Source: Acidobacteriota bacterium (GTDB lineage: Bacteria; Acidobacteriota; Vicinamibacteria; Vicinamibacterales; UBA2999). From it: a stretch of 54,712 nt of DNA. The stretch lies in contig JAUSDY010000137.1 in NCBI GenBank assembly GCA_030650395.1, positions 1 through 54,712 on the forward strand. The letters are read 5' to 3'. The translations under genes were made by a program, and so were the position numbers. Under the pieces are notes generated by a model that saw only the letters and a list, made by a program, of their open reading frames with translations, did no database searches and was not told the DNA's origin. Each line of letters begins with the position of its first letter. Within the stretch, counting starts at the first letter, position 1. Positions 38,640 to 54,712 of this stretch are shown piece after piece.

Positions 38640-38893
38640 CGGCGATCAGGTCGACCCCCAGGGGATCCTGGCCCTTGAGCGGATCGATTCGGTTACTCGG
38701 ACAGGCGCTGGGTCTACGGCTGGCGCGCGACGCGGCACGGCGTGACGACGCCGCCGCGACGATCCTCGATTTACGGCTCGCGCTCAAGCGCGCCGAACAG
38801 GAGATCGCGTGGCTGACGGCGCGTCTCGCCCGCCTGCCGCCGCGCCATCGCCCACATTACACGCCCACCGAACGCTGGCCAGCTGCAGTGCCA
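38640..38893 (+). mobile_element. IS remnant copy A (N-terminal part of a DDE transposase)
   Basis: The plus strand reads GQALGLRLARDAARRDDA, then AEQEIAWLTARLARLPPRHR and HYTPTERW. This is the same opening as the transposase of copy C (43050-43260), at high identity. The frame is cut right after TERW, where sequence of the surface-protein gene on the minus strand takes over. No rve domain or right end is present. Confidence 0.7.
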
Positions 38894-39902
38894 CGATCTT
38901 GAGAATGGCCGCGACGCCGTTCATCACCGCGTCTTCGGGAATGCGGACTTCGACGCCGCCGGGCCCCAGGATCTCGCCGCCGCCGTTGCCGACCGCGGTG
39001 GTGCCATCCGGCGCCACGTATTCGCTGCGCTTGAACGAGGTCTGACGCCCGATCAGGTCGGTGATCGTCACGATCAGCCGATCGGAATTCTCCGCGACCA
39101 GATCACCGCCGACGGAGCCGTCATTGAACACCGGCAGCGTGGACACTTCGCCGGTGGTCTCGTTGACGACGAGCACGGTGGATCCGGGCGCGAGCGTCCC
39201 CGGCGGACCACTGAGCGTGACCTGCCCTTCCGCATTCGGGAACGAAAACACCAGCAGGTCGAGATCGTATTGCGGCGCGGTATTCGACTGCGTCGTGAAC
39301 GTCGTCTGCGGCACGGTGATGGCGCCGCCGACGGCGTCCGCCAGACCGGAGACCGCGACGCTGAACTCCGTGCCTTCCGCGAGCCGCGCGAGCGGCACGA
39401 TGGCGAGGGTGCGGCCGGAGCCGGAGAGCACGAGGCGAAACGGCACGGGCGCCGAGGGCGCGGTGATCTGTGTGAACGTGATCGCCGCGGTCGTGAGGCT
39501 GCCCGGCTTGATCGGCACGGACGAGGAGACTTCCACCTGCGCACCGGGCGACACCGTGATGGCGCCGTCGGCCGGGACAACAGTGGCCTCCGTGACCTCG
39601 CCGGCCAGCGCGATATCCACCGTGGCGTCTGCGCCCGTCACCACGGTCGCGTTGGCTTCTCCGGCGAGCGACGTGTTTGCCGCGCGGGCGCGGACCGTCA
39701 CGTTGCCGGCACGGCCGATCGTGGCATAGCGGCCGTCGACGCCGAGGGTGGCGAACGGCAGGCCGCTGACCTCGACGACGGTATTGACGGGCGTGCCCGC
39801 GGCGTCGGTCAGGCCGCGGACGAAGCCGATGCCGCCGGTCACGCGATCCCAGACGTAGCGGCCGCCGAGCCGGACAATGGCGGCAAGGCCCAGTTTTTCG
39901 AG
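38894..39902 (-). pseudogene. surface-protein gene fragment 1 (Ig-like repeats), both ends lost
   Basis: About 335 codons of a secreted or surface beta-sandwich protein, rich in Val, Thr, Gly and Ala, with no cysteine in the body. The protein reads VRLGGRYVWDRVTGGIGFVR, then carboxypeptidase-regulatory-like and Big-type repeats, ending near ILGPGGVEVRIPEDAVMNG. There is no start or signal peptide: its 5' end is fused to a DUF6883 fragment near 39885-39902, and its 3' end to IS copy A near 38893. The first 125 residues are duplicated in fragment 2 (41470-42189) with about 85 percent identity. Confidence 0.65.
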
Positions 39903-40139
39903 TCACTCGGCTTCTCGATCACGAATCCGATGTGGCTCGCCGAGGCCCTGCTCGGCGTGGCGCGGTCCGGGCAGGTGGTGGCGGAGCTCAAATCTGTCCA
40001 CGGTCAGAAATATGTTGTGGATGGACGCCTGTCGTCGCACACTGAAACCAGTCGCCAACGGATGGTCCGAACGGTCTGGGTTATCGATGATGAAACGGAC
40101 GCGCCGCGCCTGGTGACCGCCTATCCTGGCAGGGAGTGA
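39885..40139 (+). pseudogene. DUF6883-type gene, 5' truncated
   Basis: The frame reads FFESLGFSITNPMWLAEALL, then HGQKYVVDGRLS and RMVRTVWVIDDE, ending TAYP. This is the second half of a DUF6883-type protein (FFxxLGF, GQKYVVxG, VxTVWxI), normally about 110 residues. The first third and start codon are missing at the junction with the surface-protein fragment. It lies nine bases before a DUF4926-type gene, its usual neighbour. Confidence 0.6.
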
Positions 40140-40148
40140 GCTTTCGCG

Positions 40149-40379
40149 ATGATCAACGAACACGATCGGGTGGTCTTGACGGCGCCAGTGCCTTCGGAGG
40201 GTCTCGAGAGTGGCGATGTGGGCACGGTGGTGCACGTCTACTCAGACCGCCAGGCCTTCGAAGTCGAATTCACCACGCTGGACGGGGGGACGGCCGCCGT
40301 GGCCACTGTGGAGGCCTCCTGTGTCCGGCCCGTCACCAACCGCGAGATCACCCATGCTCGCGAGTTGACGGTCCGTTAA
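40149..40379 (+). CDS. DUF4926-type small protein
   Basis: A 76-residue protein that opens MINEHDRVVLTAPVPSEGL, then GDVGTVVHVYSDRQAFEVEF. This is the small SH3-like beta-barrel pattern of DUF4926. Such proteins are often next to DUF6883 genes and may form a functional pair with them, perhaps of toxin-antitoxin type, which is unproven. Its partner here is truncated, so it may be an orphan. It looks intact. Confidence 0.65.
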   Translation: MINEHDRVVLTAPVPSEGLESGDVGTVVHVYSDRQAFEVEFTTLDGGTAAVATVEASCVRPVTNREITHARELTVR

Positions 40380-40499
40380 ATCCACCTTCATTCTTCTTCG
40401 GCAACGTCCTCCGCGGGTACTGGCGGCCATTCGCCGCGGCGGCCATGACGGCGGCACGATGGCCAAATCGGCGGTACGACGATCCGTGGGTGCTGCGTG

Positions 40500-41469
40500 T
40501 GACAGCATGCGCGCATGCGTGCCGTCGATTCGCCGCTCCGAGCGGTCGGGAATGCTCTGATCGCGCGCACGCTGGTGCGCGCGGGTTGGCGCGTCTCGCC
40601 GGAGACGGTGCGCCGCATTCGCCGTGAACGGCCGATCGCCCCACCGGCCGCGCCGCGTGGCTCCGGCGTGATCGCGTCGCGGCCGAATCAGGTCTGGCTG
40701 ATCGATCTCACCAGTATCCCGGGTCTGTTCCGCGCGACAACATTTCACGTCGGCGTGATCTTCGATGCCTTCGCGCGCCTACCACTCGGCTGGCGGGTGT
40801 TTGTTAGGCGCCGACGGCGCGCCAAATCGCACGCCTCCTTCAGTCGGCAATCGATCGCTGCGGCCGCCCCCGTCATCTCATCAGCGATCGCGGCGTGCAA
40901 TTTACGGCGACGACGTTTCGACGACGGCTTCGCCGGCACCACATCCGACATCGTTTCGGGGCGGTTGGGCGCGTCGGCTCCATCGCGCTGATCGAGCGCT
41001 TCTGGCGTACGCTCAAGGATGCGGCGCGCGTGCGTCAGCGGCCACCGCTCTCGGCGGTGTCGCTCGCGGCGCGGCTGCGACTGACGATGGCGTGGTACAG
41101 CGCCGCACGCCCACACACGGCGCTCGGTACCGCGACACCCCGGGAGGTCTCTCGCGCCCAACGGTCGGCGGTACCGGCGCGTTCGCCACCACGAGGCCGT
41201 CGCGGTGACGGCCCACCAGTCTCCCCCTTTGCGATCGTGTTCTTAGATCCGAACCAGACCTTGCCGGTCCTCGTCCGCCGCGCTGCCTGATCTACGGCCC
41301 GCGGCGTTCGCAGCGCGGCGACGCGCTCGACGTGTGCCCGCCGATGACGCGACGATCAACTGTTCCTATCAACGGAGCACTGCGGTATGCGGACACACGC
41401 GGCGAGGCCTTTCGAACGCCTCAGTTAGACGTCGAAGATCGCCCGATCAATTCCCATTGAGGTAGTACA
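40500..41469 (+). mobile_element. IS remnant copy B (DDE transposase, internally deleted and frameshifted)
   Basis: An rve-type DDE transposase with damage. The reading starts like copy C (MRAVDSPLRAV) but jumps to NALIARTLVRAGWRVSPETV, an internal deletion of about 440 bases. The first Asp (PNQVWLIDLTSIPG), second Asp (ISDRGVQFTATTF) and Glu (ALIERFWRTLKDAARV) are present. A frameshift near 40800-40810 separates the first Asp from the rest. The right end is the 26-base sequence at 41444-41469 shared with copy C. Confidence 0.75.
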
Positions 41470-42189
41470 CGGTCGTGAGGCTGCCTGGCTTGATCGGCAC
41501 CGACGAGGAAACCTCGACCTGCGCGCCGGGCGACACCGCGATGGCGCCGGTCGCTGGTGTCACGGTGGCGGCCGTGACCTCGCCCACGAGGGAGATATTC
41601 ACCGTGACTTCGGCCCCGGCCACCGTCGTCGCGTCCTCATCGCCGGCGAGCGAGGTGCCCGCCGCGCGGGCGCGCACCGTGACGCTGCCGGCGCGGCCGA
41701 CCGTGGCATAACGGCCGTCGACGCCGGGGGTGGCGAACGGCACGCCGCTGACCTCGACCACCGTGCTGACGGGCGTGCCCGCGGCGTCGGTCAGGCCGCG
41801 GACAAAGCCGATACCGCCGGTCACGCGATACCAGACGTACCGGCCGCCAAGCCTGATCCCGGACAGGCCGTGGACGGCGCGCGCCATGTAGCGATCGCCC
41901 GCCAGCTCGCCGATCGCCACCGGCACCAGGCGCGATCGTCCGTCGAGTGATTCGACGTGTGCAACAACGAGCGTCTCGTCCAGGCCGAGCGATGGGAACT
42001 GCGACGCCAACACGGAGAGATCGGCGCCGTCCTTGAGCGCGCGGCCCGCGAAGTCGATCGAGAACTCGAGCAGGGCGGTGGCGTCAGCCGTCGTCGGCAG
42101 GAACGACGACAGCACCGCGGACTGGAACGTCAGCGGCACGTCTTCGGTCAGCGCGCCGGCGGACACCGCGAGCGTGGCACATCCGTCCT
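41470..42189 (-). pseudogene. surface-protein gene fragment 2 (Ig-like repeats), both ends lost
   Basis: About 240 codons that start, without a signal peptide, at ATLAVSAGALTEDVPLTFQS. They continue to RLGGRYVWYRVTGGIGFVRG and end at VPIKPGSLTT, where the right end of IS copy B interrupts the frame. It overlaps fragment 1 by about 125 residues at roughly 85 percent identity, so the two come from tandem paralogues or a duplicated gene. GTG at 42166 opens the frame, but translation from it would give a truncated protein. Confidence 0.65.
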
Positions 42190-42245
42190 AACTGGCCGGA
42201 CTAGCCCGTCGTCTCTTCGGCCGATCCGTGGCCCCGGAGTTTGTT

Positions 42246-42512
42246 ATGATGCGATCGTTGGCTATGGATAATCTGGCTCTGAACGCGATCGAACTGATCG
42301 GGGACGTGGATGCTGATCATCGCCTGCACGCCGATGTCCCCAAAGAAGTGCCGGCCGGCCAGGTGCGCCTGATCGTCCTGCTGCCCGGCGAGGATGCCGC
42401 CGGCGGCGTGTGGGCACAGGGGATTGCCGCAGACTGGTCGGCGGAATTGCACGATGCCCGCGAGGACATCTACACGCTCGATGACGGCCAGCCCGTGAAT
42501 GCGGGCCGGTGA
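42246..42512 (+). CDS. antitoxin of a MazEF/PemIK-type pair
   Basis: An 88-residue small acidic protein. The middle part (VDADHRLHADVPKEVPAGQV) has the look of antitoxins whose first half is a small beta domain, followed by an acidic helix (WSAELHDAREDIYTLDDGQP). GGAG seven bases before the ATG at 42246 decides the start; the ATG at 42264 is also in frame. It overlaps the toxin gene by 14 bases. It should bind the toxin and repress the operon. Confidence 0.7.
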   Translation: MMRSLAMDNLALNAIELIGDVDADHRLHADVPKEVPAGQVRLIVLLPGEDAAGGVWAQGIAADWSAELHDAREDIYTLDDGQPVNAGR

Positions 42513-42870
42513 GATCTACCTAGCGCGCTTTCCGTTTGGCGATGTGCCGGGGATGAAGTTGCGCCCGGTGCTGCTGCTGACCGGACGACTCGGACCGGTT
42601 CCCGAAGTGCTGGTGGCCTATATTTCGTCGGTGCTACCCGCGCAACCGTTGGCGTCCGATCTCATCGCCGATCCGTCTGCGCCCGCCTTTCAGGCCACGC
42701 ATCTCAAAGTGCCGTCGGCGGTCCGCCTCCACAAACTCGCGACCATTCATGGGTCGAGTTTGTCGCGACATCTGGGTCGCTTGGAATCGCCGCAACAGGC
42801 GATCGTCGCCGGAAAACTTCGGGCGCTCCTCGGGCTGACAACAGAGCCGGACGCCCCGAGCGGCTCGTAA
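42499..42870 (+). CDS. MazF/PemK-type toxin
   Basis: A 123-residue toxin of the PemK/MazF fold, an endoribonuclease that cuts mRNA at short sequences. MRAGEIYLARFPFGDVPGMK is the usual opening, KLRPVLLLT the RNA-binding arginine loop, and HGSSLSRHLGRLESPQQ the closing helix. Both toxin and antitoxin look intact although the surrounding 5 kb is debris, which fits a selfish module that resists loss. Confidence 0.8.
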   Translation: MRAGEIYLARFPFGDVPGMKLRPVLLLTGRLGPVPEVLVAYISSVLPAQPLASDLIADPSAPAFQATHLKVPSAVRLHKLATIHGSSLSRHLGRLESPQQAIVAGKLRALLGLTTEPDAPSGS

Positions 42871-42998
42871 GCCGGCGTCCGAGCTCGTTATGCCTGATCA
42901 TCAGTGCCGGATCGCAGGGCCGCCGAGCCGCTCGCCCTCAACAACAAAAAGGGCGGTCGATGTCTTCCCGCCGTTCTTGAACGACGAACAGGTTCGCA

Positions 42999-43746
42999 TG
43001 TGCCACGATGCGCGCATGCGTCGTCTGGTCGAGTCCCCGCTCCGAGCCGTGCTGATCTCGATTCGATTATTCGGGCAGGCGGCGGGCTTTCGGCTGGCGC
43101 GCGAGGCGGCGCGGTGTAACGGCGCGGCCGCCTCGATCCTCGAGCTGTGCCTCGCCCTGGCACGCGCCGAGCAGGAAATTGCCTGGCTCGCCGCGCGATT
43201 GGCCCGGGTGCCGCCGCGACATCGTCCTCACTACACGCCCTCCGAGCGCTGGCAGTGGCTCGAATGCCGGCACCTGCAGGGCTGGAGTCTCGACGACACC
43301 GCGCGCCGCGCGTTGGTGACGGCGGCGACGATCGCCCGATGGGAGCGCGACGCCGTTAGAGCGGAGGACGGTCGCGCCCCCGTCGCGCGGCCGACGCCGC
43401 CCATCCGTCGTTTTTCCGACGCGGTGCGCGCCCTCGTGCAGCTGATGGACCGCTGCGGCGTCGGCGGCAACGCGCTGATCGCGCGTACGCTGCTGCGCGC
43501 CGGCTGGCGCGTCTCGCCCGAGACGGTGCGGCGCATTCGGCCGAACGGCCGATCGTCGGGCCGACGGACGCGCGCGGCACGGGTGTGATGGCAAGGCAGC
43601 CGAATCACGTCTGGTTGATCGATCCCGATCCGCTGCCTGCTGATGACAACCAAAGAACCGACATCACGTGATGGGCGTGCCAGGCGCGTTGGACCGGCGG
43701 ACCCCTCGCCAATATTGCCGCGATCAATTCCCATTGAGGTAGTACA
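42999..43746 (+). mobile_element. IS remnant copy C (transposase lacking most of the rve domain)
   Basis: The best-preserved N-terminal half of the transposase: MRRLVESPLRAVLISIRLFG, a helical region AEQEIAWLAARLARVPPRHR, a helix-turn-helix (GWSLDDTARRALVTAATIAR) and LIARTLLRAGWRVSPETVRR. It reads as an open frame to 43588. In another frame it continues to PNHVWLIDPDPL, the first catalytic Asp, and then the rve domain is gone. The right end CGATCAATTCCCATTGAGGT (43721-43740, extended to 43746) is identical to that of copy B. Copies B and C together suggest a parent element of about 1.5 kb. Confidence 0.75.
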
Positions 43747-43834
43747 GCACGAATCGTCGCTGCCGCGGTCTGAAGAGTGCGCTCTTTGCACGGTGATTTC
43801 GCGCGCGCAAATCGACAGTTCGTGCGCGCGAAGT

Positions 43835-44623
43835 CTACAGAAGGGCTTTCGCGCGCGCGGCCTGTTCGAAGAAGCGGCGCACCGCCTCGCGGTCTTCGAG
43901 GCGATCGGCGAGGGCCGCAAGGTCCGCGGCCAGGCTTTGCAGGAGCGGCTTCAGTTCTTTGCTATTGGTGGCCAGCACGCTTTCCCACATGTCGGCGCCG
44001 CTCGCGGCCAGCCGTGTCGTGTCGCGCAGCCCGTTGCCCGCCCACTTCAGGTTGTCGTCGCCGATGGCGCGGGCGACCGCGATCATCAACGCGCTCGCTG
44101 TCAACTGAGGCAAGTGGCTGACGGCAGCCATCAAGCGATCGTGTTCCTGTCCGTGATCCGAAAGCGGAACCGCGCGCGCGCCGAGCGCCTCGACGAACTT
44201 GACGGCGCGCCGCATTACGTCTGGCGCGTCGGGATTGGTCAGGAACCACGGCTGTGCGTCAAAGAGATCGGCGCGCGCCATCTCGGGGCCGGATGAGGTG
44301 CCGCCGGCCATCGGGTGTCCGCCCACAAACTGCGGCATCCGGGCGGCCGCCGCCGCCCTCATGATCGAGTGCTTCGTGCTGCCGGTGTCGAGGACGAGCG
44401 TTTGTGGGCTGATGACGCGCGCGAGCTTTGGAAGCATCTCGATGATGGCATCCACCGGTGCCGCGAGCACAACCACCAGCGCGTCGCCCACGCCGTCCAG
44501 CGCTTCGCCCTGGTCGACCGTGCGGACATCGAGTCCCGGCCATCGCCGCTGTGCAGCGAGGGTTACTGAGGTGCCAATCAACCCCGGCCCTACGACCGCG
44601 AGCCGCGGAATGGGATCGGGCAT
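43835..44623 (-). CDS. tyrA: prephenate dehydrogenase
   Basis: A 262-residue TyrA that oxidatively decarboxylates prephenate to 4-hydroxyphenylpyruvate for tyrosine. The NAD-binding Rossmann motif is VVGPGLIGTSVTLAAQ. Conserved pieces GGHPMAGGTSSGPEMA and the catalytic-His segment AAVSHLPQLTASAL follow, then a C-terminal helical dimer domain. It is short and single-domain, with no fused chorismate mutase or ACT domain, so direct feedback by tyrosine is not obvious. It is the last gene of the aromatic operon, 49 bases after the DAHP synthase gene. Confidence 0.93.
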   Translation of the reverse strand: MPDPIPRLAVVGPGLIGTSVTLAAQRRWPGLDVRTVDQGEALDGVGDALVVVLAAPVDAIIEMLPKLARVISPQTLVLDTGSTKHSIMRAAAAARMPQFVGGHPMAGGTSSGPEMARADLFDAQPWFLTNPDAPDVMRRAVKFVEALGARAVPLSDHGQEHDRLMAAVSHLPQLTASALMIAVARAIGDDNLKWAGNGLRDTTRLAASGADMWESVLATNSKELKPLLQSLAADLAALADRLEDREAVRRFFEQAARAKALL

Positions 44624-44672
44624 CTAGCTCTTTGGCACTCTTCGCACCGTACGCACCTTAGGCACCCTGGCT

Positions 44673-45719
44673 TTACCTGGCCCAGCCCCGCCGCGCGACG
44701 GGTTCGAGGCAGATGCTGCGGCCGATCGCCGGCGCGATGATGCGGAGCTCCGCCATCAGACGATCGAACTGCGACGGGAACATCGACTGCGCGCCGTCGC
44801 TCAAGGCGTGATCGGGATCGTTGTGCACCTCGATGATCAGGCCGTCGGCGCCGGCCGCCACCGCCGCGCGCGCCATTGGCGCCACCTTGTCGCGCCGGCC
44901 CATGCCGTGGCTGGGGTCGACGAAGATCGGCAGGTGCGACAGCTCCTTGACGATCGGAATCGCGGAGAGGTCGAGCGTGTTGCGCGTGAAGGTTTCGAAG
45001 GTGCGGATGCCGCGCTCGCAGAGGATCACGTCGGTGTTGCCGCCCGAGAGGATGTACTCCGCCGACAGCAGCCACTCCTCCATCGTCGCGGCGATGCCGC
45101 GCTTCAACAGGATCGGCTTGCGGGTGTGGCCGAGCTCGCGGAGCAACGTGAAGTTCTGCATGTTGCGCGCGCCGACCTGGTAAATGTCGGTGTATTTGCC
45201 GATCACTTCGATCTGGCTCGCGTCCATCACCTCGGTGACGAGCTTGAGGTCGTGGGCGTTCGCGCCGCCGCGCAGCAGCTGCAGGCCCTCTTCGCCCAAG
45301 CCCTGAAAACTGTATGGTGATGAGCGCGGCTTGAAGGCGCCGCCGCGCAGGATCTTGGCGCCCGCCCGCTTGACGGCGGCCGCCGTTGCGTGAACCTGGG
45401 CCTCGCTTTCGGCCGAGCACGGGCCGGCGATCACGATCACCTCGTCGCCGCCGATGCGGACGTCGCCGATCGTGATGATGGTGTCATCCGGCTTGAAGGT
45501 GCGGCTCGCCAGCTTGTAGGGCTGCGTGATGCGCAGCACTTCGTGGACACCGGCCATCAGCTCGATCAGCCGCGGGTCGACGGTGCCGCCCCCGACCACG
45601 CCGAGCACGATGCGCGACGCGCCGGTCGAACGGTGCACATCCATTCCCATTTCAACGAGGTGGGCGATCACAGCTTCGACTTCGCTGTCACTCACCCGCT
45701 CTTTCATTACGACAACCAT
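44673..45719 (-). CDS. aroF: DAHP synthase (class I, beta type) with N-terminal ferredoxin-like domain
   Basis: A 348-residue 3-deoxy-7-phosphoheptulonate synthase, the entry step of the shikimate pathway (phosphoenolpyruvate plus erythrose 4-phosphate). Residues 1-75 (MVVVMKERVSDSEVEAVIAH) form the ferredoxin-like regulatory domain that senses Tyr or Phe in this subclass. The barrel has GPCSAESEAQV, GAFKPRSSPYSFQGLG, LKRGI and FVDPSHGMGRRD. Upstream lies the palindromic repeat of the chorismate mutase gene (44-base gap). Its place beside that gene fits the known interaction of the two enzymes in related bacteria. Confidence 0.95.
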   Translation of the reverse strand: MVVVMKERVSDSEVEAVIAHLVEMGMDVHRSTGASRIVLGVVGGGTVDPRLIELMAGVHEVLRITQPYKLASRTFKPDDTIITIGDVRIGGDEVIVIAGPCSAESEAQVHATAAAVKRAGAKILRGGAFKPRSSPYSFQGLGEEGLQLLRGGANAHDLKLVTEVMDASQIEVIGKYTDIYQVGARNMQNFTLLRELGHTRKPILLKRGIAATMEEWLLSAEYILSGGNTDVILCERGIRTFETFTRNTLDLSAIPIVKELSHLPIFVDPSHGMGRRDKVAPMARAAVAAGADGLIIEVHNDPDHALSDGAQSMFPSQFDRLMAELRIIAPAIGRSICLEPVARRGWAR

Positions 45720-45732
45720 GATGTTTTTCCCT

Positions 45733-45776
45733 CGCGGACCTAAAGGTCCCGTCCATCGCGGACCTAAAGGTCCGCG
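45733..45776 (+). repeat. palindromic repeats, ACCTAAAGGT core, supplying a stop codon
   Basis: Two tandem copies: an imperfect CGCGGACCTAAAGGTCCCG (45733-45751) and a perfect 20-base palindrome CGCGGACCTAAAGGTCCGCG (45757-45776). The TAG stop of the chorismate mutase gene (45764-45766) lies in the centre of the second copy, which therefore also encodes the last residues (ADL). Confidence 0.85.
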
Positions 45777-46093
45777 CTACCTTTCGCTGCCTTCTCGCGC
45801 TCGTCACGCTCGGCTTCGAGCCGCTGGATGCGGCGCGCTTCGTCCATGATGCGCTCGTACAGCCGGGCCACCGCATCGCCATCGAGCGGTCCATCCAGCG
45901 CCTCGTTGACCTGGCGCACGTGCGCGATCACTGCGGCTTCACGCGCCGGCTCGTACACCGGCCGCCCGAGTTCGTGCTTCAACCGCCCGATCGAATACGC
46001 ACAGCGCGCGCGGCTGTCGAGCAGACGGACAATGACCTCGTCGATCTTGTCGATCTCGTCGCGCAACGCCTCGAGGCTCAACTGCGCAGCCAT
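45764..46093 (-). CDS. chorismate mutase (AroQ class)
   Basis: A 109-residue all-helical chorismate mutase that converts chorismate to prephenate. The N-terminal helix (LRDEIDKIDEVIVRLLDSRA), then RCAYSIGRLKHELGRPVY with the active-site Arg and Lys, fit the AroQ fold. The closing helices (ARLYERIMDEARRIQ) complete the fold. Its start overlaps trpA by 16 bases. The C-terminus (KGSADL) and stop come from a palindromic repeat. With tyrA downstream it directs chorismate to tyrosine, so the operon serves both branches. Confidence 0.9.
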   Translation of the reverse strand: MAAQLSLEALRDEIDKIDEVIVRLLDSRARCAYSIGRLKHELGRPVYEPAREAAVIAHVRQVNEALDGPLDGDAVARLYERIMDEARRIQRLEAERDEREKAAKGSADL

Positions 46094-46849
46094 TGCACAT
46101 ACCGCTCGACTTCGTCGAGCAATCCCGCCGACTGGCCGTGCTCGGCGATCACCTTGACCAGCGCGCTCCCCACCACCGCGGCGTCGGCCCACTGCCCGAC
46201 GGCCCGCACGTGCTCGGGGCGCGATAGTCCGAATCCAAGCGCCAGGGGCATCGCCGTTTCCGCCCGCACCCGCCCCGCGAGATCCTTCGCCGAATCGTCG
46301 AGGGACTCGCGGACGCCCGTCACGCCTAGTCGCGAAATGCCGTAGAGGAACCCGCTGCCCAGTGTCGAGGCGCGCCGGATCCGCTCGACCGACGTGGTCG
46401 GGCTCAACAGAAAAATTGTATCAATCCCAGCCCCGGCGAATGCGCCACGGAACGCCTCACCTTCCTCGGGGGGCATATCCAGGGTGAGGACCCCGTCGAC
46501 GCCGGCGGCTTTCGCTTCGGTCACAAATCTATCCAGGCCCATCCGGAGTATCGGATTGGCGTAGCTAAAGATGACGACCGGGGCGGAAATATCCGCCCGC
46601 ACCCCGGCGATCATCGCCAGCACCTTTTCGAGGGTCGTGCCTGCGGCCAGCGCCCGCTCGGTCGCCCTCTGAATCACCGGCCCGTCCGCCAGCGGATCCG
46701 AGAACGGCACGCCCACTTCGAGCACGTCGGCGCCGGCGCGATCGAGCCGGCGAAGAATCTCCGCCGATCGCGCTACATCCGGGTCGCCCGCGGTGACGTA
46801 GGTCACGAGCCCGGTGCGCTTGTTGGCGCGCAAGTCGGCGAAGCGCTGC

Positions 46850-46863
<14 letters not shown>
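46078..46863 (-). CDS. trpA: tryptophan synthase alpha subunit
   Basis: A 261-residue TrpA that releases indole from indole-3-glycerol phosphate. The catalytic Glu is in [19 protein letters not shown] with the active-site Asp in the next segment. Other conserved parts are the loop-2 region [15 protein letters not shown] and [10 protein letters not shown]. The start is a GTG at 46863 inside trpB (14-base overlap). Length is normal. Confidence 0.95.
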
Positions 46864-48072
<1,209 letters not shown>

Positions 48073-48076
<4 letters not shown>

Positions 48077-48684
48077 ACCGTCTCCTTCGCGGCCGCGATG
48101 AACCGCCGCATCAACTCGTGGTCTTTCACGCCGGGGCTCGCTTCGACGCCCGACGCCACATCGACCGCGTACGGCCGGACCGTGCCGATCGCCTCGGCCA
48201 CGTTCGCCGGCGTAAGACCGCCGGCCAGCACGACGCGCCGCAGCCGCGCCACCAGCGCGGCGCGTGTCCAATCAACCGTCTTGCCGGTTCCGCCATGACG
48301 CTTCGGATCGTGGGCATCGAGATGGATCGTCGCGTCGGGCACCGGCGGTTCGATCGAGTCGGCGCCATCCGATCCCAGATGGACCGCCCGAATCACCGGC
48401 ACTGGCGGCCGCCCGGCCGGCCAGGTGGGAACGTCGCCGTGAATTTGCGCCAGCTGGATTCCGCTCGCCGCGGCCTGGCTGACGTCGCCGGCGGACGGGT
48501 TCACGAAGACGCCGACCTTGATCACGAACGGTGGAAGAAACGCCCCGATCCGCTGCACCACTTCGAGTGAGGCATGCCGCGGGCTGTTCGGCCACCACAC
48601 GAATCCCAACGCGTTGGCGCCGAGCGCCACCGCGGCTTCCGCGTCTTCGAGGCGCGTGATGCCGCAGATCTTGATCGCCGTCAT
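48073..48684 (-). CDS. trpF: phosphoribosylanthranilate isomerase
   Basis: A 203-residue TrpF (PRAI), the third step specific to tryptophan. The catalytic Cys is in [36 protein letters not shown] and [14 protein letters not shown] follow, with the final Asp in [13 protein letters not shown]. It is short but complete. Its start overlaps the trpC stop by four bases; that overlap lies in a frame of which the last 24 codons derive from a palindromic repeat. Confidence 0.95.
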
Positions 48685-49616
48685 ACGGGCTCCCTTCGAC
48701 TCGGGACGAGACCGGGACCCGGTCTCGCCCCTCGCTCAGGGCTGGCCGGGCTCCCCTGTTTCAGCGACTCGAGTAGATGCGCGAGTGCGGCGCCGGGATC
48801 CGGCGCCACCATGAAGCGCTCGCCGATCAGAAACGCTTTGTAGCCGAGCGACGTCATCGCCCGCAGATCGTCGGGCGTCTTCAGGCCGCTCTCGCTGATC
48901 GCGACCACATCCCTGGGCAGCGAACGCGCGATCACGTGCGAAGCCTCGAGATCGACCTGCAGCGTCCTGAGATTGCGGTTGTTGACGCCGATCACGACAG
49001 ACAAACCTGACTTGTCCGCCGTAGCGCATGGCGCGAAGGTGGAAGGTTTGTCCCCACCGGTGCACGCGAGCGCGCGCTCGCATTCCTGCGCGCTGTGTAC
49101 CTCGACGAGTGCGGCAAGTCCGAGTTGATCGGCCGCGGCCGCAAGTCGCCTCAAGTCCGCGTCGTTGAGGGCCGCAACGATCAGCAGAATCGCGTCGGCG
49201 CCGGCCGCGCGGGCTTCGAGCAGCTGGTAGTCATCGACGATGAAGTCTTTACGGAGCAGCGGAATGCGGACGGCGGCGCGCACCGACTCGAGGTGCGCGA
49301 GGGAGCCGTCGAAGAATCCCGGCTCGGTCAGGACCGAAATGGCCGCCGCGCCCGCACGTTCGTACCCGGACGCGATGTGCGCGGGTTCGTAGGCCGCGCG
49401 CAGAATCCCGCGCGACGGCGATCGCCGCTTGCACTCGGCGATCACGTTGACGCGATCCATTCGCGACAGCGCGGCGACGAATCCAGCGCCATCGGGCGAC
49501 CGCTCCATCGCTCGCCGCTCGAGGGCCGGGCGTGCTTCGCGCGCCTGAGAAGAGGCGACGCGCGCGCGGGTCGCGCCGACGATGGCCTCGAGCAGGTCCG
49601 GCGAGCCGGCGGTCAT
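48681..49616 (-). CDS. trpC: indole-3-glycerol-phosphate synthase carrying two palindromic-element insertions
   Basis: A 311-residue TrpC; the usual length is about 260. Core motifs are intact: IAECKRRSPSRGILR, LLRKDFIVDDYQLLEARAAG, VIGVNNRNLRT and ISESGLKTPDDLR. An extra stretch (about residues 185-206, containing GDKPSTFAPCATADKSG) sits in the loop before the VIGVNNRNL strand, where relatives have only a few residues. It is encoded by a palindromic repeat at 49000-49052. After the normal end (LLESLKQ) a further 24 residues (GSPASPERGARPGPG and so on) come from a second element at 48692-48746, which also leads to the stop overlapping trpF. Both additions keep the frame, so the enzyme is probably active. 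Confidence 0.93.
   Translation of the reverse strand: MTAGSPDLLEAIVGATRARVASSQAREARPALERRAMERSPDGAGFVAALSRMDRVNVIAECKRRSPSRGILRAAYEPAHIASGYERAGAAAISVLTEPGFFDGSLAHLESVRAAVRIPLLRKDFIVDDYQLLEARAAGADAILLIVAALNDADLRRLAAAADQLGLAALVEVHSAQECERALACTGGDKPSTFAPCATADKSGLSVVIGVNNRNLRTLQVDLEASHVIARSLPRDVVAISESGLKTPDDLRAMTSLGYKAFLIGERFMVAPDPGAALAHLLESLKQGSPASPERGARPGPGLVPSRREPV
48692..48746 (+). repeat. palindromic element at the trpC 3' end (CCCTTCGACTC family)
   Basis: Constant arms CCCTTCGACTC and CTCGCTCAGGGCTGGCC enclose the hairpin GAGACCGGG/CCCGGTCTC. The direct repeat CGGGCTCCC borders it on both sides (48686-48694 and 48746-48754). It encodes the C-terminal extension of TrpC. Confidence 0.85.
49000..49052 (+). 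repeat. palindromic element inside trpC (GACAAACC ends)
   Basis: The ends GACAAACC (49000-49007) and GGTTTGTC (49045-49052) match those of the intergenic palindrome at 25495. Inside is a second imperfect hairpin (TCCGCCGTAGCGC/GCGCGAAGGTGGA). The element is 53 bases with flanks of the same composition, and lies in frame. Confidence 0.8.
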
Positions 49617-50647
49617 GCCTGTGCTCCGGCGGAGCGATTGGAGACCGACACAAGGCGATCGAGCACGCCGCGGGCGGCACCGCTGTCGATCGCCGCGGCG
49701 GCCATGCCGATGCCGGTGCGAACGGTGTCGGCGGCGCCGGCGACGAACAACGCCGCGCCGGCATTCAGCACGACCACGTCGCGCGGGTTCCCGGTGGCGC
49801 CGTCGAGGACGCTTCGAACGATCGTCGCGTTGGTCGCGGCATCTCCACCTTTGAGCGATTCGGGCGTCGCCTTGGCCAGGCCGAAGTCGGCAGGATGCAC
49901 GTAGAAGGTCTGCACCGTATTGGCGCGGCATTCCGAGACCTTCGTGTAGCCGGTGGTCGAGAGCTCGTCGAGGCCGTCGGCGCCGTGCACCACCCACGCG
50001 CGCTCCGACCCGAGCAGCGCCAGCGCTCGAGCCAGCAGCTCCGTCAGATCCGGCCGCGGCACGCCGACGATCTGCCGCGTCGGGCTGGCGGGGTTGGTCA
50101 GCGGTCCCAGTAGGTTGAACGCGGTGCGCACGCCCAGATCCTTGCGGGCTTGCGCCGCGTGCCGCATCGCGGGGTGGAAAGTTGGCGCGAAGAAAAACGC
50201 CATGCCCACTTCGTCGAGACACCTGGCAGCGAGATCGGGCGCCGCCTGCACATTCACGCCGAGCGCCTCGAGCACGTCGGCGCTACCGCATTGGCTCGAG
50301 ACCGATCGGTTGCCGTGCTTGGCAACGCGGACGCCGCAGGCCGCCAGCACAATCGCCGCGGCGGTTGAGATATTGAACGTGCCCGACTTGTCGCCCCCGG
50401 TCCCACACGTGTCGAACACCATCCCTTGCTGAGCCGGCACCGCCACCGCATTCGCCCTCATCGTCCTCGCCAGCCCAACCAACTCGGCGGGCCGCTCGCC
50501 TTTCATCGCCAGGCCGATCAACAACCCGGCGATCTGCGCGGGCGCGGCGTCGCCGTTCATGATCGCCGCCATGGCGGCCGCGGCCTCGTCGGTCGAGAGA
50601 TCTTCCTGGCGCCGGAGCTTCTCGATCAGGGCTGGAAACATGTTCAA
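49613..50647 (-). CDS. trpD: anthranilate phosphoribosyltransferase
   Basis: A 344-residue TrpD that joins anthranilate to PRPP. The PRPP loop is FDTCGTGGDKSGTFNIST, then KHGNRSVSSQCGSADVLEAL and the metal-binding NLLGPLTNPA. It overlaps trpC by four bases. Between trpG and trpD there is a 104-base gap holding a perfect hairpin. The start at 50647 (MNMFPALIEKL) or the ATG at 50641 are both possible. Confidence 0.95.
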   Translation of the reverse strand: MNMFPALIEKLRRQEDLSTDEAAAAMAAIMNGDAAPAQIAGLLIGLAMKGERPAELVGLARTMRANAVAVPAQQGMVFDTCGTGGDKSGTFNISTAAAIVLAACGVRVAKHGNRSVSSQCGSADVLEALGVNVQAAPDLAARCLDEVGMAFFFAPTFHPAMRHAAQARKDLGVRTAFNLLGPLTNPASPTRQIVGVPRPDLTELLARALALLGSERAWVVHGADGLDELSTTGYTKVSECRANTVQTFYVHPADFGLAKATPESLKGGDAATNATIVRSVLDGATGNPRDVVVLNAGAALFVAGAADTVRTGIGMAAAAIDSGAARGVLDRLVSVSNRSAGAQA

Positions 50648-50703
50648 TGGAGCGTATCAACCATTTCTAGGGAGCCGAGCACCGTCGCTCGACCAACATA
50701 TTC

Positions 50704-50726
50704 GGGCCGTTCCTACGGAACGGCCC
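50704..50726 (+). repeat. palindrome in the trpG-trpD gap
   Basis: GGGCCGTTCC and GGAACGGCCC are separated by TAC. It has the arm-short-loop-arm shape of the other palindromes, but with its own arm sequence. There is no T-run, so it is probably not a terminator, though it could act as an mRNA-stabilising hairpin between trpG and trpD. Confidence 0.7.
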
Positions 50727-50751
50727 CGTGGCGCATCGATCCGATACTCCA

Positions 50752-51318
<567 letters not shown>

Positions 51319-51323
51319 GTCGC

Positions 51324-52796
51324 CTACAGCCCCGTCTGCGCCAGTTCGAGCGCGCGCATCATCGCGCCCGCCTTGTCTTTCGATTCCTGATACTCGGCGG
51401 TCGGGTTCGAATCGGCGACGATGCCGCCGCCGGCCTGGATGTAGGCCTTGCCGCCTTCCATCAGAATCGAGCGGATCGCGATGCAGAAATCGAGGTTGCC
51501 CGCAAAATCGAGGTAGCCAACCGCGCCGGCATACAGACCACGGCGTGTCGATTCGAGTTCGTTGATGATTTGCATGGCGCGCACCTTCGGCGCCCCTGAC
51601 ACGGTGCCGGCCGGGAAGCACGAGACCAGCGCATCAAGTCGATCGCGACCTTCCGCCAGTTGACCTTCCACCACCGAGACCAGATGCATGACGTGCGAGT
51701 AGCGCTCGAGGCTCATCAGCTTCGAGACGCGCACGCTGCCGTAATCGCAGACGCGGCCGATGTCGTTGCGTCCCAAATCCACCAGCATGATGTGTTCGGC
51801 CTTCTCTTTCTCGTTTCGCTTGAGCTCCTCGGCCAGGCGCATATCTTCTTCATCGGTGCGGCCGCGCGGCCGCGTCCCGGCGATCGGATGTGTCACCGCG
51901 TGGCGGCCTTCGACCCGCACCAGCATTTCGGGCGACGAGCCGACGATCGATCGATCGCCCATGCGGATGAAGAACATGTAGGGCGACGGGTTGACGTGGC
52001 GAAGCGCGCGATAGACGGTGAAGGCATCGACGCCGACTTCGGCCTCGAACCGCTGCGACAGCACGACCTGGTAGATGTCGCCGGCGGCGATGTATTCCTT
52101 CGCCTGTTTGACGATGCCCTCGTAGGCGTCTTGCGACATGTTCGAGACCAGCTTCACGGCTTCACCACCGGCCGGACGCTTGATCGACAGCGCGCGCTCG
52201 AGCTCGCCCTCGAGAAATTCGATCTTGGCGCAGGCGAACTGATAGAGCGACCGCAAGTCTTCATCGCCGGAGATCCGCGCGTTGGCGATCAACAGGATGC
52301 GATGCTGGACGTGATCGAATGCCAGCACCGTGTCGAACACCATGAATCCGGCGTCATCGCGATCGGCGGTACCGGCATCGGCGCGCGCCACCGTCGGCTC
52401 GAACCAGGCGGCCGTGTCGTAGCCGAGGTAGCCGACGGCGCCGCCGGTGAATCGCGGCAGGCCGGGCACGAAGGGTGATTGAAAGCTGTTCATCAGCTCG
52501 CGCAGCGTGTCGATGAACGGCGTCGCGACGTCGCTCGTGACGCCCTGCTTTTCTATCACCGTCTGGCCGTTCCGGCTCTTCAGGATCAGGAACGGGTCCT
52601 TGCCGAGGAACGAGTAGCGGCCGACGTGCTCGCCGCCCTCGACGCTTTCGAGCAGGAAGGCGTAATCGGAGTGCTCGGCAATCTTCAAGAAGGCCGACAC
52701 CGGCGTCAGCAGGTCCGCCACCAGCTCCTTGCACACGGGCACGAATGTCGCGCGCTTGGCCAGGTCCACGAACTCTTCAAACGTCGTCTGCTTCAT
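51324..52796 (-). CDS. trpE: anthranilate synthase component I
   Basis: A 490-residue TrpE that makes anthranilate from chorismate. FLLESVEGGEHVGRYSFLG holds the LLES element for tryptophan feedback. The chorismate site is in IAGTRPRGRTDEEDMRLAEE, VDLGRNDIGRV, SGAPKVRAMQIINELE and IQAGGGIVADS. The start overlaps the aroDE stop by four bases. Besides allosteric feedback, transcription into the gene is probably set by the leader attenuator upstream of aroDE. Confidence 0.96.
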   Translation of the reverse strand: MKQTTFEEFVDLAKRATFVPVCKELVADLLTPVSAFLKIAEHSDYAFLLESVEGGEHVGRYSFLGKDPFLILKSRNGQTVIEKQGVTSDVATPFIDTLRELMNSFQSPFVPGLPRFTGGAVGYLGYDTAAWFEPTVARADAGTADRDDAGFMVFDTVLAFDHVQHRILLIANARISGDEDLRSLYQFACAKIEFLEGELERALSIKRPAGGEAVKLVSNMSQDAYEGIVKQAKEYIAAGDIYQVVLSQRFEAEVGVDAFTVYRALRHVNPSPYMFFIRMGDRSIVGSSPEMLVRVEGRHAVTHPIAGTRPRGRTDEEDMRLAEELKRNEKEKAEHIMLVDLGRNDIGRVCDYGSVRVSKLMSLERYSHVMHLVSVVEGQLAEGRDRLDALVSCFPAGTVSGAPKVRAMQIINELESTRRGLYAGAVGYLDFAGNLDFCIAIRSILMEGGKAYIQAGGGIVADSNPTAEYQESKDKAGAMMRALELAQTGL

Positions 52797-54250
52797 CGGG
52801 TCTCCTTGATCGCGTCGAGCCGTGCCCTGGCCGCGTCGCGCATCACGCGATCCGCGGGCCGTTGATCGGTCCACCATTCGAACTGCGCCTGCGCCTGCGC
52901 CACGAGCATGTCGAGGCCGCCGATGGTCTGGCAGCCGGCGCGCTCCGCGTCGATCAGCAGGCGCGTGGCCGGCGGGTTGTAAACCAGGTCGTACACGAGC
53001 ATGCCGTCGAGGCGGTGGCCCTCGGGCAGCGGCGACGCGTCAACGGCGGGCGCGGTGCCGACCGGCGTCGCGTTCACCAGCACATCCCAGCTGCCCGGCG
53101 ACGGCGGCCACGTGCCGACGGTCGCGCCGCTCAACGCCGCCACGGTTCGCGCCTGGTCTTCGCGGCGGGCCGCAATGGTCACGCGAACGCCGGCCGACTG
53201 GAGCGCCACGGCGACCGAGCGAGCCGCGCCGCCCGCGCCAAGCACGGTGGCGCGCTTGCCTGGCAACCGCATCGCAGACTGGAGCGGTGTGAGGAAACCG
53301 GTGACGTCGGTGTTGCAGCCGAGCCACTTCGTGCCGCTGCGCCGCAGGGTGTTGACCGACTGGATGCGCCGGCTGACGGGGTCGCACTCGTCGGCGCGCT
53401 CGAACGCCGGCACCTTGAACGGCGCCGTCACGCTGACCCCCGCAAGATTGACCGCGTCGGCAAACATCAGGAAGTCGTCGAAATCAGCCGCGGCCAGGGG
53501 CAGATACACGGCATCGAGGTGGGCGGCGCGAAACGCCGCGTTGTGCATCGCGGGCGAGACTGAGTGGCCGACGGGGCGGCCGAGCACGCCGTAGATCGCC
53601 GTACGGGATCCGATCCGGCGAAAGCCGAACTCGTCGCTCATCCGCTGAGCGCTGATCTGCCTGGGCGCCACGCTGTCTCCGGCATAGGTCCAACACGACC
53701 CGATCCAGCTGGCCAGCACGCGGCTTGGCAGGCCCGCATCGCCCATGGCGATCAACACCACCGGCACGCGCGTTTGCTGCCCGATCGAACGAAGCGCGAG
53801 GCAATCGGCCAGTCGTTCAGCCGTGACGGCGATCTTCACAACTTCAGCGCCTGACGCCAGCATGGCTTGCGACAGCTCCGAGAGATCCGCCGGCACGCCG
53901 TCGAAATCGTGATGCGACATCACAATGCGGCGCCCGCCGGTTTTCTGCATCAGATCGGCGCAGCTGCCCTGCCACTCGAGGTCGACATATTCGGCGCCCA
54001 GCGAGAGCGCGTCGCTCAGGATCGCGCGGCGCTCTTCTTCGGAGCCGGCGAACCATCCGCCGTCGGACTTGGGGCGGCAGGTGACGATGACGGGCTTGCG
54101 CCGGCCGGCGAGGGCCGCGGCGGCGCTCGGATCGCTGGCCGAGTCGAGCCGAAGCTCAATCAGATCGGCGTCGTGGACCTGATCCCTCCGCGTACGCAGC
54201 TCGGCCATGGTGTCGCCGGTCACGGTCACGCAGAGCTTGGCTGGTTTCAT
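52793..54250 (-). CDS. bifunctional 3-dehydroquinate dehydratase / shikimate dehydrogenase
   Basis: A 485-residue AroD-AroE fusion. The N-terminal 220 residues are a type I dehydroquinase (LIELRLDSA, VIVTCRPKSDGGWF, MSHHDFDG with the catalytic His, and a Schiff-base Lys in AEVVKIAVTA). The rest is shikimate dehydrogenase (GRPVGHSVSPAMHNAAF, VTAPFKVPAF with the catalytic Lys, NTDVTGF, VLGAGGAARSVAVAL). Such fusions are known in plants and some bacteria. ATG at 54250 is the likely start; TTG at 54259 and GTG at 54256 are in frame. The best ribosome binding site (AAGAGG, 54271-54276) lies in the 3' arm of the attenuator hairpin, so translation may also be controlled. Confidence 0.94.
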   Translation of the reverse strand: MKPAKLCVTVTGDTMAELRTRRDQVHDADLIELRLDSASDPSAAAALAGRRKPVIVTCRPKSDGGWFAGSEEERRAILSDALSLGAEYVDLEWQGSCADLMQKTGGRRIVMSHHDFDGVPADLSELSQAMLASGAEVVKIAVTAERLADCLALRSIGQQTRVPVVLIAMGDAGLPSRVLASWIGSCWTYAGDSVAPRQISAQRMSDEFGFRRIGSRTAIYGVLGRPVGHSVSPAMHNAAFRAAHLDAVYLPLAAADFDDFLMFADAVNLAGVSVTAPFKVPAFERADECDPVSRRIQSVNTLRRSGTKWLGCNTDVTGFLTPLQSAMRLPGKRATVLGAGGAARSVAVALQSAGVRVTIAARREDQARTVAALSGATVGTWPPSPGSWDVLVNATPVGTAPAVDASPLPEGHRLDGMLVYDLVYNPPATRLLIDAERAGCQTIGGLDMLVAQAQAQFEWWTDQRPADRVMRDAARARLDAIKETR

Positions 54251-54256
54251 AAGCAC

Positions 54257-54300
54257 CAAAACAAAAAGCGCCTCTTCCCGTTCGGGTTAAAGAGGCGCTT
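54257..54300 (-). terminator. intrinsic terminator of the trp attenuator
   Basis: On the minus strand AAGCGCCTCTT and AAGAGGCGCTT form a perfect 11-base stem (54290-54300 and 54266-54276), extended by CCCG/CGGG, with TTTTTGTTTT after it. It ends seven bases before the aroDE ATG. On the plus strand there is no T-run, so it serves the minus strand only. Confidence 0.9.
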
Positions 54301-54329
54301 CGGTCGAGCGTCAGATTGCTTCGTGGTGG

Positions 54330-54446
54330 TTACACGGACCGGGCAGCCTCTCCCATTGGGCACCAATACCACCACGCGCGCACACCGCTGCCGGTTCGGC
54401 CAAAAGACCGAGTGCGGGTGGCGGTGAAAACGGCTGTCGAGCGCAT
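54330..54446 (-). CDS. trpL: trp operon leader peptide (regulatory)
   Basis: A 38-residue leader peptide ending in a stop at 54330-54332. Residues 24-30 read AWWYWCP: three Trp codons and one Tyr codon in four positions (codons 25-28, 54363-54374). The Trp codons lie in GTGGTGGT, which pairs with ACCACCAC just after the stop (hairpin 1:2). The segment AGAGGC (54346-54351) can pair with GCCTCT of the terminator arm (54291-54296) as antiterminator. Stalling at the Trp codons would free AGAGGC and let the operon be read; a ribosome at the stop would cover it and let the terminator form. No Shine-Dalgarno is visible, and the predicted start of transcription is only a few bases upstream, so translation may be leaderless. 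Confidence 0.85.
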   Translation of the reverse strand: MRSTAVFTATRTRSFGRTGSGVRAWWYWCPMGEAARSV

Positions 54447-54458
54447 GTGAACGTCGAA

Positions 54459-54488
54459 AGGCTAGCAGACCCCGTGCGCCGGCGTCAA
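54459..54488 (-). promoter_or_regulatory. promoter of the aromatic operon
   Basis: On the minus strand TTGACG (54483-54488) and TAGCCT (54459-54464) are 18 bases apart. The start of transcription would fall near 54452, about six bases before the trpL ATG. Confidence 0.55.
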
Positions 54489-54545
54489 ACCGGGGGACAG
54501 CGACGGGCGCACGTCAGGGGAGTGGGGCGCGCGCGGCTCCGACTG

Positions 54546-54574
54546 TTGCGGCGTATTGACCTTGCGGATATAAT
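54546..54574 (+). promoter_or_regulatory. divergent promoter for the DUF6788-type gene
   Basis: TATAAT (54569-54574) is a perfect -10, with TTGCGG 17 bases upstream (54546-54551). A second TTGACC at 54556-54561 is too close to serve as its -35. AAGGAG (54581-54586) follows, before the ATG at 54593. Confidence 0.6.
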
Positions 54575-54592
54575 AGCCGCAAGGAGTGACCC

Positions 54593-54712
54593 ATGCCCCA
54601 CCCGACGATTCCCGCAGACGTCAGCGCGGTGGCCGATCAGATCGCGCGGCCGCGCCCGATGCGTCGCGGCTCGGTGTCCGAGCGCTACGTGAAATGCAAC
54701 AAGGCGGGCTGC
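54593..54712 (+). CDS. DUF6788-type protein, cut by the window end
   Basis: The first 40 residues of a protein that opens MPHPTIPADVSAVADQIARP and runs on to MRRGSVSERYVKCNKAGC. RxGSVxERYVKCxKxGC is the start of the small zinc-ribbon-like DUF6788 family, often found beside transposases and other mobile genes. It has its own promoter and Shine-Dalgarno, divergent from the trp operon. The rest lies beyond the window, so neither length nor function can be judged. Confidence 0.65.
   Translation, partial: MPHPTIPADVSAVADQIARPRPMRRGSVSERYVKCNKAGC

Follow-up and report, generated by a model that had tools for sequence, protein, structure and literature searches.

The window analysed here is the whole of a 54,712-nucleotide (nt) stretch of DNA from an Acidobacteriota bacterium of the order Vicinamibacterales (contig JAUSDY010000137.1). 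Close to one end of it, on the minus strand, a short leader with clustered aromatic codons precedes a run of genes that begins with aroDE, continues through the trp genes and ends with tyrA. The original prediction took this leader and its terminator for a classical tryptophan attenuator. We regard it as almost certain that the element is a ribosome-mediated transcription attenuator, and the best explanation overall, which we consider likely, is a bivalent Trp–Tyr attenuator of this type placed before the supraoperon.

A promoter-like sequence, TTGACG-18-TAGCCT, was found with a lax promoter search at positions 54459–54488 (minus strand, as are all parts of the element) and predicts a transcription start near 54452. 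The leader open reading frame (ORF), at 54330–54446, comprises 38 codons and a TAA stop (54332–54330) and encodes MRSTAVFTATRTRSFGRTGSGVRAWWYWCPMGEAARSV; its sensing codons, TGG TGG TAT TGG (Trp-Trp-Tyr-Trp), lie at 54363–54374. Also within the ORF is the antiterminator strand, GGAGAGGC, at 54346–54353. Its partner, arm 3 (GAAGCGCCTCTTT, 54289–54301), doubles as the 5′ arm of the terminator. The 3′ arm is arm 4 (GAAGAGGCGCTTT, 54265–54277), with the T-rich tract next to it, the two together reading GAAGAGGCGCTTTTTGTTTT (54258–54277), and the ATG of aroDE follows at 54250. The 38-codon Trp-Trp-Tyr-Trp leader and the limits of the region, 54250–54488, are as originally described, and the promoter-like sequence falls inside them.

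Folding of the RNA, which had been proposed as a check, confirmed a strong terminator: 54301–54265 folds at −21.4 kcal/mol, a stability equalled by none of 200 shuffles, and the 128-nt leader has z = −2.7. A 1:2 hairpin that uses the Trp codons had been proposed as well, and in the window sequence it is real; strand 1 (CGTGGTGGT, 54368–54376) and strand 2 (ACCACCACG, 54322–54330, starting at the last base of the stop codon) are fully complementary and pair in the predicted fold, and the hairpin is found in 7/9 members of the genus. Taken alone, this part of the leader is not unusual in stability (z = −1.2; 26/200 shuffles equally stable).

Conservation of the leader in Vicinamibacterales

Among 99 genomes of the order that were searched, 94 match AroDE; two fragments (G015, G092) were left out, giving 92, and one further genome (G078) has no upstream DNA, so that 91 loci are readable. 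Leaders were picked by the presence of at least three aromatic residues in six codons, including at least one Trp. A short ORF with an aromatic cluster (Trp plus others) precedes aroD(E) in 90 of the 91 readable relatives, which span 15 families; the filter passed over only G070, in which a one-Trp leader was recognised by eye. An intrinsic terminator before the first gene satisfies a strict rule for 87 of the 90 leaders, one of which (G066) is without the conserved 5′ arm; in the three that fail it (G016, G038, G047) the conserved hairpin is retained, but the T tract is weaker. The sensing window, defined as the ten codons before the antiterminator strand and ending at the variable start of the match, was read in 89 leaders (all but that of G066), and all but one of these windows hold two or more Trp codons (88/89).

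Loss of the Trp codons in close relatives that keep the terminator had been named as the result that would refute the prediction. It was looked for within the genus, in which all nine members retain WWYW or WWWYW, and a comparison across the 91 readable loci of the order found one-Trp leaders only in G070 and G082. The pattern of antiterminator strand and two arms occurs exactly once in each of the nine genus genomes, always at aroDE, with no match in the reversed control, and the Trp-Tyr pattern has a single occurrence in the genome from which the window comes.

A named set of 80 loci was read by eye. The named relatives are metagenome-assembled genomes titled Acidobacteria, Vicinamibacterales or Vicinamibacteria, a few titles (e.g. 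Bifidobacterium breve) looking wrong, and the closest of them, RIFCSPLOWO2_12_FULL_67_14b, has an AroDE 85% identical to that of the window. The element is present, whole or in part, in 33 close relatives; of these, L131, L136, L138 and L164 were not picked for the Trp pair and L132 has a weaker T tract. The remaining 47 loci, from AroDE or AroE relatives in Planctomycetota, Nitrospinota, Desulfo-groups, Dehalococcoidia, archaea, Granulicella and other Acidobacteria, show no comparable leader and terminator; one of them, L195, has a Trp-containing ORF and a weak hairpin, with a score of 17 as against 25–41.

When anchored to the leaders, the lax promoter search placed a best match ahead of 87 of the 90, some of them weak (none for G007, G069 and G098), most being of the form TTGAC(A/G/C)-17/18-TAnnnT; a stricter consensus scan of 43000–54712 reported no promoter. 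The first in-frame start codon (ATG, GTG, TTG or CTG) lies at a median of 6 nt from the predicted transcription start, and the first in-frame ATG (72 leaders) at a median of 10.5 nt. The start codon is 5–6 nt from the predicted transcription start in all eight genus members with a promoter match (about 6 nt in the window) and at least 25 nt from it in some families. Since this leaves no room for a Shine-Dalgarno sequence in the genus and many of its relatives, the leader is probably leaderless, or nearly so, in these organisms, given the predicted start. Leaderless translation is likewise reported for trpL of S. meliloti (PMC7298713) and for some Streptomyces leaders (PMC8079986), among them, in S. 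lividans, those for Leu, Met and Thr (PMC8079986, PMC1262725).

Antiterminator strand and alternative folds

Spacing was measured in 86 leaders, namely the 90 without G016, G038 and G047 (weak T tract) and G066 (no antiterminator match). Pairing and arm swaps were analysed in 85 (the 86 without G045), and masked folds, shuffles and reading frames in 83 (the 86 without G029, G074 and G088, in which the automatic antiterminator match is off register). From the first aromatic codon to the antiterminator strand the median distance is 24 nt and from the last one 13 nt, and the end of the strand lies a median of 12 nt from the stop codon; the distance between aromatic codons and antiterminator is nearly fixed.

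The 8-nt core of the strand pairs with arm 3 at positions +1 to +6 in 82–84 of the 85 leaders, at +7 in 78 and at 0 in 70, with compensatory changes on both sides at +3, +5 and +6. Arm swaps and shuffles served as controls for this pairing. Arms swapped between genomes always pair worse, with 761/850 cells observed against 742.4 ± 3.5 (0/5000; n = 85), and the same holds with one genome per genus (493/550 against 478.3 ± 2.7, 0/5000; n = 55). In 73 of 83 genomes no more than 5% of dinucleotide shuffles (60 trials) match the observed complementarity, and in 45 none does.

Folds were also predicted with part of the leader masked by a ribosome, whose footprint was assumed to reach 13 nt beyond the A-site codon; an antiterminator was called when at least 5 of the 8 core positions paired. 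A stall at the first aromatic codon yields the antiterminator in 82/83 leaders and a stall at the last one in 75/83, and a ribosome at the stop codon yields the terminator in 80/83. The anatomy of antiterminator and terminator claimed in the original prediction is thus supported by covariation, by spacing and by masked folds. The 1:2 hairpin, real in the window, does not appear to be a conserved part across the order: the cluster pairs with the region after the stop in 47/83 leaders, which is not above the 41.9 ± 3.7 obtained when that region is shuffled, and we dropped it as a universal component. A ribosome standing at the stop could mask the antiterminator strand itself, and no such hairpin would then be needed.

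In the mechanism that we propose, polymerase would start a few bases ahead of the leader AUG and a ribosome would load on the leaderless or near-leaderless ORF. When charged tRNA-Trp or tRNA-Tyr is scarce, the ribosome would stall in the Trp-Trp-Tyr-Trp cluster with its front edge ending about at the start of GGAGAGGC. The free strand would pair with the 5′ arm of the terminator once that arm is made, no terminator would form, and transcription would read through into the genes from aroDE to tyrA. When both amino acids are plentiful, the ribosome would either cover GGAGAGGC from its position at the stop or depart and, in the genus of the window, let the 1:2 hairpin form; the terminator would fold and transcription would stop.

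Tyrosine codons and operon content

Tyr is present in 82 of the 89 sensing windows. Among their non-Trp codons it accounts for 113/631, compared with 57/2527 in the upstream part of the leaders. In the 83 leaders analysed by position, Trp and Tyr codons lie mostly 12–38 nt upstream of the core, and just one Trp and three Tyr codons fall at 0–11 nt; this common boundary at 12 nt is approximately where a stalled ribosome would leave the antiterminator strand free.

The choice of synonymous codon also differs, in a comparison made over the 86 loci whose aroD(E) was read for 300 codons or more. Tyr in the sensing window is written TAT in 74/107 cases (69%), compared with 143/557 (26%) in aroD(E) and 14/57 in the upstream leader, and with one genome per genus (54) the counts are 45/69 and 97/352 for window and aroD(E) respectively. 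Phe shows TTT in 26/40 window codons as against 267/1175 in aroD(E), with a smaller shift relative to the upstream part (75/172). Outside the order the shift towards TAT is weaker (17/30 versus 140/387 in trpE, p = 0.03). Elf and Ehrenberg argue that sensitive attenuation depends on the choice of particular synonymous codons (PMC1183508). The original prediction had suggested that the Tyr codon might let a shortage of tyrosine cause read-through; this gains comparative support from the enrichment in the sensing window, the 12-nt limit and the preference for TAT, and the response itself we infer. On these sequence comparisons, Tyr is probably a genuine second input beside Trp. Phe, considered as a general third input, is unsupported, as it is not enriched; such a role is conceivable in lineages with WWWFFYF or WFWFIYF.

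The genes behind the leader, all on the minus strand, carry Pfam matches that bear out the claimed content of the supraoperon from aroDE through tyrA. The first, aroDE (52793–54250; PF01487, PF08501, PF18317), is a fusion of 3-dehydroquinate dehydratase and shikimate dehydrogenase. It is followed by trpE (51324–52796; PF00425, PF04715), trpG (50752–51315; PF00117), trpD (49613–50647; PF00591, PF02885), trpC (48681–49616; PF00218), trpF (48073–48684; PF00697), trpB (46850–48076; PF00291) and trpA (46078–46860; PF00290), and then by genes for a type II chorismate mutase (45764–46090; PF01817) and 3-deoxy-D-arabino-heptulosonate 7-phosphate (DAHP) synthase (44673–45719; PF00793, PF18152). The final gene is tyrA (43835–44623; PF02153, PF20463), of the prephenate dehydrogenase family. 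The starts of trpE, trpG, trpC, trpB, trpA and the chorismate mutase gene are approximate. Gene order and spacing suggest that the whole cluster, aroDE-trpEGDCFBA-chorismate mutase-DAHP synthase-tyrA, would be a single transcript. Of the 59 operons of the order with at least 10.8 kb of downstream DNA, 58 have a tyrA by tblastn, 55 a DAHP synthase and 50 a chorismate mutase. The sole operon of these without tyrA, in G017, has a leader with WWWW and no Tyr, a single case.

Elsewhere in the phylum, a Trp-rich ORF with antiterminator and terminator was sought in 94 genomes selected from trpE matches; the upstream DNA reached 4–6 kb in most cases and was scant in others, and part of the set was fetched twice. 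In 28 of the 94, such a leader immediately precedes trpE, aroDE or a gene for DAHP synthase. Over the 100 loci scanned (2.75 Mb, both strands), 32 matches lie beside trp or aro genes and 4 elsewhere, and two of the four represent one leader in G213, which lies 738 nt from the trpE match and was assigned to the second group; G174 was outside the scan. The switch is no isolated case: nearly every readable member of one order has it, and, with codons that vary, so do some of the other lineages of the phylum.

In these other Acidobacteriota, Tyr is found in the cluster in 12/15 operons with DAHP synthase or TyrA and in 3/12 with neither (Fisher p = 0.007; G104, in which the contig ends inside the operon, was left out). 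Three of the operons with neither (G136, G159, G341) break off where the contig or the fetched DNA stops, and without them the counts are 12/15 and 2/9 (p = 0.010). Family f41 contains both kinds: its trp-only operons have WRW, WCW and WHWW (G132, G206, G303; Tyr in 0/3), whereas those with tyrA have GYYWYWRW, YDYWYW and GYRWCWW (G255, G269, G310; Tyr in 3/3). Tying Tyr to TyrA alone was also considered for operons outside the order, and rejected because the association is too weak (5/5 operons with TyrA, 10/22 others). Several of the operons with DAHP synthase also include aroA (one has aroB and aroC) or precede a gene for an aromatic amino acid hydroxylase. One such biopterin-dependent hydroxylase gene, in G270 (L322:11656–12600, plus strand), follows DAHP synthase-trpEGDCFBA behind a leader with WYWW. 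In three genomes of family f41 (L274, L277, L292), a gene for a RACo-like corrinoid-activation protein follows the trp-only cluster on the same strand.

We lean, with some reserve, towards a broader reading in which many aromatic operons of Acidobacteriota are under multivalent attenuators whose mix of codons changes as the operon evolves, added codons being placed in the ribosome window as rarer, probably slower synonyms. On the same guarded footing, the leaders would mostly carry Trp alone where there are only trp genes, and operons that have gained DAHP synthase, chorismate mutase or TyrA would have Tyr (Phe in some lineages) beside Trp. If this is true, a single leader would compute the OR of Trp and Tyr shortage for a shikimate-Trp-Tyr supraoperon. 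Because leader codon content differs among operons of differing make-up, these leaders offer a natural series for studying the evolution of multi-amino-acid sensing.

Alternative explanations and known attenuators

The alternative that survives best is a classical attenuator responding to Trp alone, with the Tyr codon a passenger held by RNA or peptide context; we consider it unlikely, but to be taken seriously. Trp codons are the most constant feature of the sensing windows, Cys is likewise found near Trp (13/83 at 9–11 nt), and some operons elsewhere that hold trp genes only (G151, G214) have Tyr as well. A passenger codon does not readily explain, however, why Tyr is eight times commoner in the sensing window than in the remaining leader, why its position differs between genera and it is written TAT or TAC, with the rarer codon preferred in the window and not upstream, or why its presence or absence tends to track operon content in other families. 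The best argument for caution about Tyr sensing comes from the nearest mixed aromatic leader, AroR of C. glutamicum, which precedes aroF and resembles the present leaders in having a mixed aromatic cluster, Phe-Tyr-Phe, before the gene for a DAHP synthase of the shared pathway. It differs in that the cited account mentions no Trp; as reported there, Phe shortage acts on this working leader and Tyr shortage does not, so that its Tyr codon does not sense Tyr (PMC11802643).

Far less probable is the possibility that the short ORF encodes an arrest peptide (TnaC-like), or acts in trans as peptide or RNA, with codon-stalling attenuation secondary, although trans roles are reported for both the leader peptide and the attenuator RNA of Sinorhizobium (PMC7298713). 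Outside the aromatic cluster the peptide is, by eye, unconserved across the order, save for a Glu/Gly/Ala-rich stretch that encodes the antiterminator strand, and this stretch does not keep to one frame. The core is in the usual frame in 73/83 leaders and in the other frames in 10 (5 + 5, in 8 genera); in five leaders (G012, G024, G045, G057, G076) it lies at or past the stop codon yet is retained. At least in such leaders, therefore, it is maintained as RNA and not as peptide. The leader may still have a role in trans on top of attenuation.

A T-box, a TRAP site or another attenuator that binds a trans factor or ligand would share with the element a terminator in the 5′ leader of an amino acid operon, but is a very remote prospect, as the sets searched gave no T-box, TRAP or TrpR match and no Rfam match at gathering scores. 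Rfam at the gathering threshold has no match in the whole window, and over 54200–54600, at E up to 10, gives three weak matches to unrelated families, taken as chance; Trp_leader (RF00513) is absent from these leader-region matches, and from all nine genus genomes (150 of 319–564 candidates per genome scored; E. coli control positive). The T-box (RF00230) was found in 0/40 genomes (5/14 control genomes positive), the TRAP gene (PF02081) in 0/21 (B. subtilis control positive) and the TrpR gene (PF01371) in 0/21 (E. coli and B. subtilis controls positive). A chance ORF ahead of an ordinary terminator, for which one could cite the frequency of short ORFs in GC-rich DNA and other ORFs with three aromatics in six codons upstream of some relatives, is refuted by the conservation at 90 of 91 loci, the single occurrence per genus genome and the 32 versus 4 matches of the scan.

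Several points weigh against the bivalent attenuator, or limit how far it reaches. The response to a shortage of Trp or Tyr, the stalling and the read-through are all inferred from sequence. Raw pairing percentages are biased and prove little alone, because the antiterminator strand was chosen as the best complement, and the swap and shuffle controls are not corrected for the tree. When nothing is masked, 75/83 leaders are predicted to fold into the terminator, so that antitermination has to be kinetic. The use of one frame (GAA GAG GC and similar) for the core in 73/83 leaders means that its conservation may be partly at the level of the peptide. Phe, listed with Trp and Tyr for some lineages, is as frequent in the sensing window (41/631, 6.5%) as upstream (172/2527, 6.8%). 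Within the order, the leader of G066 (L076) retains YWWWC and arm 4 and has lost the 5′ arm of the terminator, a natural terminator loss that possibly makes the operon constitutive, and G070 and G082 have a single Trp codon each, with Phe codons in the leader and the terminator retained. Outside the order, 66 of the 94 genomes scanned show no such leader, among them both of the class-mates from beyond the order that were covered (G158 and G378), and the link between Tyr and operon content, counted by family, is 9/11 versus 3/8 (p = 0.07), or 9/11 versus 2/6 (p = 0.11) without the three truncated operons.

Known systems close to the proposed bivalent attenuator include the trp attenuator of E. 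coli and other Proteobacteria (RF00513), with which it shares a tandem-Trp leader ORF, alternative antiterminator and terminator hairpins and a trp operon downstream. It differs in the Tyr codon of the cluster, in an antiterminator strand placed inside the ORF or at its stop, in a 1:2 hairpin that is not above chance across the order, in the shikimate and tyrosine genes that share the cluster and in the absence of an RF00513 match. Multivalent leaders, in which one leader senses several of the amino acids that the operon makes, are known from the thr and ilvGMEDA operons of E. coli; they concern branched-chain amino acids and Thr/Ile, not aromatic ones. Both operons are listed by Elf and Ehrenberg (PMC1183508). 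The rhizobial leaders, as presented in PMC7298713, are without Tyr, unlike those described here. The trp attenuators of Corynebacterium and Streptomyces are alike in their double or triple Trp codons, GC-rich terminator and conserved complementary triples in antiterminator and terminator (PMC1262725, PMC8079986); they belong to another phylum, and these accounts describe trp leaders with Trp codons only. The aro-trp supraoperon of Bacillus, reported as Trp-responsive, also sets a trp operon among shikimate genes (PMC1173090), but it is controlled through the TRAP protein, the gene for which was not found in the 21 genomes searched here.

The element is probably an established mechanism, known chiefly from Proteobacteria and Actinobacteria, in a phylum where it was not expected, and its second input would be unusual. 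It has those defining features of a ribosome-mediated attenuator that could be examined in sequence, apart from the 1:2 hairpin, which is clear in the genus and at chance level across the order. According to a survey of 2010, no leader-peptide system was known outside Proteobacteria and Actinobacteria before its own Firmicutes case, with the exception of ermC (PMC2965389). Supraoperons with tyrA and predicted attenuators in other bacteria were already noted in a TyrA study of 2005 (PMC1173090), and for Acidobacteria, among other groups, the cited report goes no further than an overall surplus of short leader genes at particular distances (PMC4833913). Neither a trp attenuator from Acidobacteriota nor a Trp-Tyr leader turned up in the literature searched, which covers only part of the work on attenuation, and an earlier mention is possible. 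For annotation, the leader ORF and its RNA could enter gene calls and Rfam respectively.

Two further features of the window lie on either side of the supraoperon. Near its 3′ end, the region 38684–43539 contains diverged repeats (300 nt at 82%, 196 nt at 78% and 75 nt at 88%), an integrase-core fragment, rve_3 (40895–41290, plus strand), and a piece of a gene for an Ig-like-domain protein, and looks like mobile-element debris; amid it is an ORF for a PemK/MazF-like toxin (PF02452; 42499–42870, plus strand). Beyond the leader, an inverted repeat, CTTGCGG-ATATAATAG-CCGCAAG (54561–54583, plus strand), stands just ahead of a divergent ORF, which starts with ATG at 54593 and runs off the contig, and looks like an operator over a −10 element.

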